Shown one piece after another: positions 39,528 to 41,404 of a stretch of DNA of 64,000 nt; the first letter of the stretch is position 1, and every line of letters begins with the position of its first letter. The position numbers and the translations under genes were made by a program. The stretch covers positions 620,001-684,000 of the forward strand of contig JAACMV010000027.1 of the NCBI GenBank assembly GCA_010909725.1, read 5' to 3'. The DNA is from Picochlorum sp. 'celeri' (Eukaryota; Chlorophyta; Trebouxiophyceae). The notes under the pieces were generated by a model, which saw only the letters and a program-made list of their open reading frames with translations, was not told where the DNA came from and ran no database searches.

Positions 39528-40811
39528 TCAATATAAAAATGGAACAATTCTATATGGTACGATTTTGCAGTACTTATCGTAGTCAGCCTTGTATTTCTTT
39601 CTACATGCCTCTTCGTCTCTCAACTCTCGATGAACCAATAAAATTGCAAAATAAATGGCATAAAAGTATGGAACGATGCCAGATTCCGTCCCAGCTGGAA
39701 GGCACCATGCAACACCCATCAGCCAGTCTCCAAAATAATTTATATGCCTCGAGACTCCCCACCAACCTGAGATTATCAGTTTTGTACCCCTTTCTGTTGG
39801 CAGAGTCCTCAAGTGTGCTACAGCAGGATCATTTGGATTTCGACGAAACAAGTCCTTCTGCGAATTAGATCCTCGGAATGTTAAGTAGCCTAGTATTTTC
39901 AAGCAGATAATACCAACCAGAGCTATCCAAGGCAGGGAAGGAGAGCGTGTCACCAATATCCTTGTCTGCAGAGAGTACGTGAACGGCACCCACGCTAAAT
40001 CTCCAAAGGCCAACATAAAGCCAAATCCATCTGTGGTGATATCCATTGTCGTCAAAATGGCTCTCTCAAATACTAGAGAGTCTAACACATATATGGCTTG
40101 GAAAATGTTCACCAGAACCATCGGGGCAGAGATTGTCCCTGTCATTGAAAGCTGCTTGTGCGCCATGCCCAGGTTGAGGATTACCCAACCAATCAGCCCG
40201 GGATAGAGTTCACAGAATTCTTTTAAATCCAAGGATCCAACACGAGGATTTAGTTCACGCCCAAGAAAGAATTCATAAATTACATTCCCCGTACAGCTTC
40301 CTTCAGAAGCAAGGAGCCTGCCAGGCACAAATGATCTGGCATACAAGTAGGCAGAGAACACCAGAGAGAAACCTATCGCAGATGTCATTAACGGAACATA
40401 GTTGTCATACAGCCACGACAAATTCAAATCATTCCTGACAAATCCAAAATATAGTGCTAAACTGACCGTTATAACAAAGTTCTTTAGGCCTGTCAGCTTG
40501 TATGTCAGCCTTGAGCCATCTGCCAATTTTGTTCCTTCGATTTTTTCTCCTGGTAGAATTAAATGCAAAGCCACTTGGAACAATAGCCACCCCAGGAAAA
40601 CAAGGGTAGCTTCCCATGTGAATATTCTGAAATCCCAGGACAAAGACCTCAGCGGCGAGCCAAGACTGAAACAAGTCTCAGCGTGGCACAGGAAAACAAG
40701 GGCATAACACACAGCGGGCAATCCTAAGATGATTCCTAAAGGCCCAACCACTGGTCCAAAGAACTCATAATGATGGCTATCGACCGAGGTATCAATATTT
40801 CTGGTGGCCAT
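39528..40811 (-). CDS. FK: Delta(14)-sterol reductase (ERG24/FACKEL type)
   Basis: ER membrane enzyme reducing the C14-C15 double bond in sterol synthesis, NADPH-dependent. The start chosen is ATG 40811 (MATRNIDTSVDSHHYEFFGP), giving 427 residues. The frame stays open upstream, but that extension runs through the permuted tRNA gene and is not part of the protein. Multi-pass topology with GPVVGPLGIILGLPAVCYAL, FFLGRELNPRVGSLDLKEFC, DGFGFMLAFGDLAWVPFTYS, and the family signature SGWWGVSRHINYFGDWLMGV then AWCLP, ending with RDEEACRKKYKADYDKYC. These fit C14 reductase better than DHCR7 or ERG4, though close paralogues make the exact step slightly uncertain. Confidence 0.87.
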   Translation of the reverse strand: MATRNIDTSVDSHHYEFFGPVVGPLGIILGLPAVCYALVFLCHAETCFSLGSPLRSLSWDFRIFTWEATLVFLGWLLFQVALHLILPGEKIEGTKLADGSRLTYKLTGLKNFVITVSLALYFGFVRNDLNLSWLYDNYVPLMTSAIGFSLVFSAYLYARSFVPGRLLASEGSCTGNVIYEFFLGRELNPRVGSLDLKEFCELYPGLIGWVILNLGMAHKQLSMTGTISAPMVLVNIFQAIYVLDSLVFERAILTTMDITTDGFGFMLAFGDLAWVPFTYSLQTRILVTRSPSLPWIALVGIICLKILGYLTFRGSNSQKDLFRRNPNDPAVAHLRTLPTERGTKLIISGWWGVSRHINYFGDWLMGVAWCLPAGTESGIVPYFYAIYFAILLVHRELRDEEACRKKYKADYDKYCKIVPYRIVPFLY

Positions 40812-40981: not shown

Positions 40982-41100
40982 TAGCAGGCTGGCGCCTTAA
41001 CCACTCGGCCAAAGCAGCGGTCCAATCGGACGAAATCACTTTTGCAACTATTACGTCGCTGCCTGCAGGATTCGAACCTACGCGACTTTCGTCACCAGCT
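40982..41100 (-). tRNA. Circularly permuted tRNA-Ser(GCU)
   Basis: On the minus strand the 3' half (41100-41057) comes first and the 5' half (41018-40982) second, separated by a 38-nt spacer. The 3' half has A38, GCTGG (39-43), a 13-nt variable arm (GAC/GTC stem), the T arm (GTAGG TTCGAAT CCTGC), AGGCAGC and discriminator G73. The 5' half has GCTGCTT, TG, the D arm GCCGAGTGGTTAAGGC, G26, CCAGC and loop CTGCTA. Acceptor 7/7 (one G-U), anticodon stem 5/5, T stem 5/5 (one G-U) and D stem 3/3 all pair. The loop is CTGCTAA, anticodon GCT. Long variable arm and G73 independently indicate serine. CTGC of the loop can pair with GCAG just upstream of the 3' half, giving a bulge-helix-bulge-like join. 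A T5 terminator follows. Mature length 81 nt plus CCA. Confidence 0.93.
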
Positions 41101-41404
41101 ACACTGCCTTTGAAAGAATCAAAGAGGTGTCAATCGTGAATTTCCTGCAGTATTTGACCATATGGAATACCCCATTCTCGCCGTACCGTCCCACAGCGCC
41201 AGCGATATGAGTGGATTATGGAACAAAAAGCATGTTGGCATACATAATACTCCATGTCAGCTGCCACAGCACCAGAAGGCAAGCCACCATTCCGTGATGG
41301 TTGTCCCTCGCACTTGTCTCATGACACCTGGGATCATTCATGATTATGTTTCACGACTATTGTTCTGCAAAATTTCAATATAATATCCATATAGTTATAT
41401 AGTT
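41101..41404. other. Intergenic region between the tRNA and DCP2, with tRNA leader hairpin
   Basis: About 300 bp. Next to the tRNA 3' half is CTGC (41104-41107), complementary to GCAG in the anticodon loop, then a hairpin CTTTGA/TCAAAG (41108-41124) that would sit in the pre-tRNA leader. The remainder should contain the DCP2 and tRNA promoters. No gene seen. Confidence 0.5.

Follow-up and report, generated by a model that had tools for sequence, protein, structure and literature searches.

How can a tRNA be made from a gene in which its second half is encoded before its first? This question is raised by positions 40982 to 41100 of the window, by which we mean the whole 64,000-nucleotide stretch of contig C27 of the Picochlorum sp. 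'celeri' assembly that was analysed. From its sequence, we interpret the locus with high confidence as a functional, circularly permuted nuclear tRNA-Ser(GCU) gene of type II (37/38), which is probably the sole source of this tRNA in the alga. This interpretation is supported by the arrangement of the halves, by the uniqueness of the locus as far as searched, by its presence in both haplotypes, and by a recurrent design with shared signals.

The locus is encoded on the minus strand, and its two halves were delimited from the sequence, from ARAGORN on the joined halves and from a covariance model (R1, described below). The 3' half (41100-41057, 44 nt, A38 to G73) comes first in the transcribed order and comprises A38, the anticodon 3' strand, the variable arm, the T arm, the acceptor 3' strand, and G73. 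It is followed by an intervening sequence of 38 nt (41056-41019), which bridges the 3' and 5' ends of the acceptor stem and contains no run of four T, and by the 5' half (41018-40982, 37 nt, positions 1-37), consisting of the acceptor 5' strand, the D arm, the anticodon 5' strand, and positions 32-37. The anticodon GCT (34-36) is close to where the 5' half ends, at 40985-40983. One strand thus carries the 3' half upstream of the 5' half, with a spacer joining the acceptor ends, as in a type II circular permutation. Upon rejoining, the halves form one complete 81-nt cloverleaf, which ARAGORN calls Ser(gct); the R1 match extends over the full length of the model (1-73 of 73). The acceptor stem has seven pairs (one G-U), the D stem three, and the anticodon and T stems five each; the assembled tRNA features a 7-nt anticodon loop, CTGCTA/A, containing GCT, a long variable arm and G73, while CCA is not encoded. 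The 37/38 junction (marked by the slash) is read from this loop, and the cleavage site itself is predicted. A sequence-only reading of the window had proposed a permuted serine tRNA gene with this junction; its coordinates, stems and lengths are all correct in the sequence, the ARAGORN call on the joined halves agrees with the serine identity, and the loop bears out the junction at the sequence level. The minimum-energy fold of the 81-mer computed with ViennaRNA (-33.4) is not the cloverleaf, which has an energy of -30.6 with its variable stem; minimum-energy folds are often wrong for tRNAs.

The neighbouring gene on the minus strand (39528-40811) is separate from the tRNA gene and encodes a sterol reductase (PF01222), which its homologues place with ERG24. 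Its ATG lies 170 nt past the tRNA gene; this start is a chosen ATG, and the listed reading frame extends to 41039. The nearest named relatives of the protein are from Micractinium, Chlorella, and Auxenochlorella, which fits a trebouxiophyte.

Conventional searches are blank at this locus. ARAGORN reports 0 tRNAs in the whole window, and Rfam gives nothing between 40500 and 41600 at E-values up to 10 and nothing window-wide at gathering thresholds, in line with the earlier expectation that an ordinary tRNA search would miss the gene. The same reading had suggested a permuted-tRNA finder or a split covariance search. A covariance model for permuted tRNAs, R1, was trained on 12 conventional tRNAs of the genome rewritten in permuted order together with the Cys gene, and the Ser(GCU) gene was left out of the training alignment. 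R1 recovers exactly 40982-41100, end to end, as its sole match in the window up to an E-value of 10 (32.3 bits, E 7.9e-8); weaker matches in the same search (22, 18.1 and 11.7 bits) fall on two loci holding conventional tRNAs. A rule-based finder likewise gives a single match in the window, on either strand, with a score of 27.5 for Ser(GCU). Applied to both strands of 261 Mb of first-order Markov sequence, the finder returned 34 matches, the best scoring 26.0. Both finder and R1 are restricted to 37/38 junctions, so that other junction types would be missed.

These searches bear on the idea that the locus resembles a tRNA by chance, or is a tRNA-derived, SINE-like element unrelated to a gene. 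Sequences of 18 nt resembling the class II D arm do recur near contig ends, which would suit such an element; yet the locus occupies one place per haplotype, 0 of the 34 simulated matches reach its score, and R1 attained its E-value without training on the gene. We regard the probability of this explanation as next to nil. As a separate candidate, permuted tRNAs of phages or viruses were considered: a pattern consisting of a T arm, 20-50 nt and a class II D arm matched two viral contigs. Both were rejected, since ARAGORN finds ordinary tandem genes (Asn then Ser) in both and the finder finds none permuted. A search of viral contigs for the ERG24 neighbour found no relative.

The assembly comprises 27,412,692 bases in 30 contigs, which largely form near-identical pairs, and the Picochlorum celeri genome is described as 27.43 Mbp, with 15 scaffolds per phase in two phases and a G+C content of 46% (PMC7225527). 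A 161-nt segment spanning the locus is present in single copy on each of C27 and C15, and the two are identical, while the surrounding 3,161 bases hold eight differences. When the assembled 81-nt tRNA was used in a DNA search of the genome at E-values up to 10, four matches were obtained, one for each half on C27 and likewise on C15. The proposed check for a second, non-permuted tRNA-Ser(GCU) thus revealed no close copy beyond the C27 locus and its C15 counterpart; since this search scored two first-look candidates and left the related Leu genes unreported, it excludes close copies only, and diverged ones could escape. A genome-wide Rfam tRNA search scored 63 of 866 candidates and gave at least 34 places, and the conventional genes L043 and L083 are absent from its output; ARAGORN labels these two as Phe and Ser with introns, whereas our own reading is Ser(UGA) and Arg(ACG). 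A tRNA of the Ser(GCU) type is needed by the alga, because its codons are in use: AGC and AGT together account for 224 of 11,338 codons in the 22 ATG-started open reading frames of at least 300 codons in the window.

Class II D-arm-like 18-mers, with up to three mismatches, are found at 41 places in the genome. Eighteen of them are no more than 11 kb from a contig end, and for 11 of these the distance is at most 2.3 kb; examples are C2:2006, C3:1976, C4:1973, C22:1972, C23:1990, and C30:2002. The contig-end places are candidates for a subtelomeric tRNA gene or a tRNA-derived repeat.

A second explanation is that the locus is a decaying relic, in which tandem duplication or rearrangement left swapped, unexpressed halves while a working Ser(GCU) gene resides elsewhere. 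The copy search covers the places read, and the 18 D-arm-like places near contig ends lie outside them, which leaves this explanation some room. Against it, all stems of the 81-nt body are intact, both haplotypes are identical, and the 81-nt DNA search found no other close copy. Together with the signals and sister genes considered below, this makes a relic very unlikely.

The sequence-only reading had set a normal tRNA-Ser(GCU) gene elsewhere against its own proposal; as far as could be tested, the DNA search brought up no such gene, and 12 further loci share the architecture of the window gene. With the window gene included, the genome holds at least 13 permuted loci representing 12 anticodons, alongside at least 20 conventional genes, one per anticodon, so that 12 of the 32 anticodons found are served by permuted genes. 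Besides Ser(GCU), the permuted genes are Cys(GCA), Leu(AAG), Leu(CAG), Leu(UAA), Ser(AGA), Gly(GCC), Ala(UGC), Ala(CGC), Arg(UCU), Arg(UCG) in two near-identical copies, and Arg(CCU). Their spacers range from 11 to 128 nt and their half order is identical, the finder being built for that order alone. Among the genes found here, no anticodon is present in both permuted and conventional form.

This inventory was assembled from a T-arm pattern, GGTTCRANYCC, of whose 187 places 100 were covered. These are on C1 to C16, which, judging from how the contigs pair, amount to about one haplotype. Flanks were taken for 78 of the 100; the other 22 were known tRNA places, the counterpart of Ser(GCU) on C15, or sites on C16, with which C10 is paired. 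A D-arm pattern served as a second source of permuted genes, and two more D-arm patterns yielded no additional one. R1 scores ten permuted loci at 27.4 to 58.5 bits and Arg(CCU) at 69.5; the next row, at 19.1, is a conventional gene, and the seven of 17 rows between 10.2 and 19.1 bits, the conventional L083 among them, were left out of the permuted count. For Ser(AGA), the anticodon was determined by eye (the finder label was TAG), as were several conventional anticodons where the ARAGORN label did not fit, and introns were read in ten conventional genes. Two ARAGORN calls were dropped from the count: 'Cys(aca)' at L054, overlapping with the permuted Gly gene, and the doubtful 'Ser(aga)' with a 12-nt intron at L094. 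For Thr, His, Tyr, Gln, and initiator Met, neither form was found by the pattern searches, limited to 37/38 junctions, which marks the inventory as incomplete. The initiator Met T arm, GGATCGANACC, occurs at 63 places; ARAGORN, the finder and R1 detected no tRNA at the 30 loci examined, none was seen by eye in a further small piece (L173), and the rest lie mostly on paired contigs.

Two sister genes allow a comparison between paired contigs. For both Ala(UGC) on C4/C30 and Ala(CGC) on C10/C16, taken as alleles by contig pairing, the spacers and leaders have diverged, while the acceptor, T and anticodon arms are conserved and most changes within the halves affect the D arm. The D stem of Ala(UGC) changes from GCAT/ATGC to GCTC/GAGT, its pairing preserved by two-sided changes; in Ala(CGC), one copy retains three D pairs (pairing judged by eye in both cases). 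This constraint on genes of the same design also speaks against a relic.

Two further observations concern individual genes. Arg(UCG), whose permuted gene has a spacer of 128 nt, is represented by two copies in opposite orientation (L077 at C8:59353 and L080 at C8:537665), which are identical at 607 of 611 bases; here a permuted gene has been duplicated as a unit. The conventional, intron-containing Lys(UUU) gene differs between its two copies on paired contigs, L149 (C3) and L150 (C23), on both strands of the T stem, with pairing kept.

How, then, might such genes be transcribed? At Ser(GCU), the internal boxes are reversed: the B-box-like GGTTCGAATCC of the T arm (41068-41078, C27:661068-661078, minus strand) lies upstream of the A-box-like class II D-arm sequence TGGCCGAGTGGTTAAGGC (40994-41011, C27:660994-661011, minus strand). 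A candidate upstream promoter element, GGAAATTC, is located at -45 (41138-41145, minus strand) and is common to other permuted and conventional genes. At Ser(GCU) it precedes the 3' half, the side from which a permuted gene has to be transcribed. The exact element occurs within 80 nt upstream of five of 13 permuted and four of 20 conventional genes, compared to 0.3% of random window pieces, and is absent there from most genes (8/13 and 16/20, respectively). It was spotted by eye in the permuted set and then counted in the conventional set, which makes the latter the less biased count; it is the commonest upstream 8-mer in the permuted set alone and in the conventional set alone. Downstream, it is found at none of 13 permuted genes and one of 20 conventional ones, and in antisense orientation upstream at none of either (0/13 and 0/20). 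TATA was rejected as a common promoter, as it stands upstream of some permuted genes and is absent from the 60 nt upstream of Ser(GCU). A TFIIIC B-block domain is matched in a 1,597-aa open frame at 30.8 bits, a weak indication, as the family also matches bacterial controls.

At the other end, a run of four T (40975-40972) and a run of five (40964-40960), at +7 and +18 after the 5' half on the minus strand, are candidate RNA polymerase III terminators. Runs of at least four T lie within 45 nt past the 5' half in all 14 permuted sequences (12 loci), compared to 18-20% of 45-nt window pieces, while none of the 14 spacers, including that of 128 nt, contains T4. The Ser(GCU) locus therefore has an upstream signal before its 3' half, a terminator-free spacer and T runs after its 5' half. 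These signals stand at the right ends, which counts against a relic. They also bear on a third explanation, a split tRNA, in which each half would have its own transcript and the two would be joined in trans, their chromosomal order being incidental. The halves do form separate units with a 38-nt gap; the sequence does not, however, point to separate loci with separate transcription, as the halves are 38 nt apart on one strand with no T4 between them, T runs occur past the 5' half, and GGAAATTC precedes the 3' half. Furthermore, the same half order recurs in 13 loci with spacers of 11-128 nt (the finder being limited to that order). We consider a split tRNA extremely improbable and retain the permuted gene.

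Elsewhere in the genome, at L005 and L017, the sequence GAGGTCCCGGGTTCAAA, which resembles part of a T arm, is found directly before conventional tRNA-Asn and tRNA-Phe genes. Judged by its sequence, it may be left over from a tRNA gene that was in tandem or had been rearranged, or may be an external B box.

Because the second half is encoded first, the cell must probably join the RNA into a circle and then re-cut it. The permuted junctions bear on the enzyme that would do the cutting. A pair between positions 32 and -3, which matters to the eukaryotic splicing endonuclease, can form in 13 of 14 permuted sequences, as it can in nine of ten conventional introns, so most permuted junctions carry the same mark as introns. 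Ser(GCU) is the exception: C32 faces T-3, unpaired, which is in keeping with a relic. Only a 4-bp helix, GCAG/CTGC, shifted by one position from the usual register, is possible at this junction: the leader GCAG (41104-41107, minus strand) is complementary to CTGC at positions 32-35 (pairing by eye) and may form the central helix of a BHB-like motif. Splicing-endonuclease domains of two kinds are detected in the genome, at 69 and 49 bits. One stretch with such a domain is found at seven places (C9, C10, C12, C16, C21, C25, and C26), five of them outside the C10/C16 pair, and is a candidate for assembly duplicates or a repeated segment.

We postulate the following pathway for the permuted Ser(GCU) gene, taking as models the red and green algae whose circular intermediates have been observed (PMC3978253). 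RNA polymerase III would start upstream of the 3' half, helped by GGAAATTC, and stop at the T runs past the 5' half. The linear precursor would fold, its two halves together making up one tRNA body, with the acceptor end closed by the 38-nt spacer and the anticodon loop open. The tRNA-splicing endonuclease would cut leader and trailer at 37/38 in an intron-like manner, and a ligase would join 37 to 38, yielding a circle from which RNase P and RNase Z would excise the spacer; CCA would then be added. For Ser(GCU), these RNA steps of cutting, ligation, circle formation and opening are thus inferred from related systems.

Permuted tRNA genes as a kind are already known. A 2014 review gives their number as 34, the largest single set being the 11 of Cyanidioschyzon merolae (PMC3978253). 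One close counterpart of our gene there is the permuted Ser(GCT) of the prasinophyte Micromonas pusilla (Maruyama et al. 2010, cited in PMC3978253), which is the same isoacceptor, also of type II with a 37/38 junction and no extra intron, and differs in its 15-bp spacer (38 here) and in algal class. The C. merolae genes (Soma et al. 2007, via PMC3978253) likewise have the 3' half first, a spacer between the acceptor ends and a T stretch past the 5' half; unlike the present set, in which only 37/38 junctions were searched and GGAAATTC recurs, the junctions of those 11 genes fall at four positions, and their upstream signals are TATA-like (PMC3978253). Permuted serine tRNA genes are also described from the nucleomorphs of chlorarachniophytes, which share class II serine identity, green-algal ancestry and, in B. 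natans, the 37/38 junction; in contrast, they are Ser(AGA) and Ser(CGA), reside in a nucleomorph genome, and have 5-bp spacers in B. natans (PMC4494063, PMC3978253). Among trebouxiophytes, Auxenochlorella has been reported to carry permuted tRNA genes (PMC12636532). The case of strain UTEX 250-A resembles ours in its phased diploid genome and in an incomplete tRNAscan-SE set, after which permuted genes were detected (PMC12636532). The SENEW3 genome paper annotated tRNAs with tRNAscan-SE, and its main text does not contain the word 'permuted'. Literature searches returned nothing on permuted tRNA genes in Picochlorum among the matches listed; GGAAATTC combined with 'alga' came up in a single paper, which concerns a bacterium, and none of the best 5 of 965 matches of a further search contained the word. 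Within these searches, the size of the set and its shared element are undescribed.

Five anticodons are permuted both here and in prasinophytes (Ser-GCU, Ser-AGA, Cys-GCA, Leu-UAA, and Arg-UCU). We did not take shared ancestry with the prasinophyte genes as our main reading, the overlap of five having a P of about 0.04 for an assumed pool of 45 anticodons. It enters a broader, joint reading, which we offer tentatively and hold to be somewhat less probable than even: a large share of the tRNAs (12 of 32 anticodons) would depend on permuted genes, the shared GGAAATTC would make the reversed A and B boxes tolerable, and the set would be old. On that reading, the five common anticodons would date permuted tRNA genes to the green-algal common ancestor, instead of to separate origins.

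For Picochlorum, these results suggest that standard tRNA annotation misses a good part of its genes. As a trebouxiophyte with at least 13 permuted loci, the alga would be a convenient organism for studying circular tRNA precursors, and its haplotype gene pairs, in which the spacer has drifted but the tRNA little, are ready-made functional tests. The shared upstream element provides a testable answer to how RNA polymerase III may transcribe genes despite reversed internal boxes. Finally, the overlap in anticodons makes it testable, across Picochlorum, Nannochloris, Chlorella, Auxenochlorella, and Micromonas, whether permuted tRNA genes are ancestral or were repeatedly invented.
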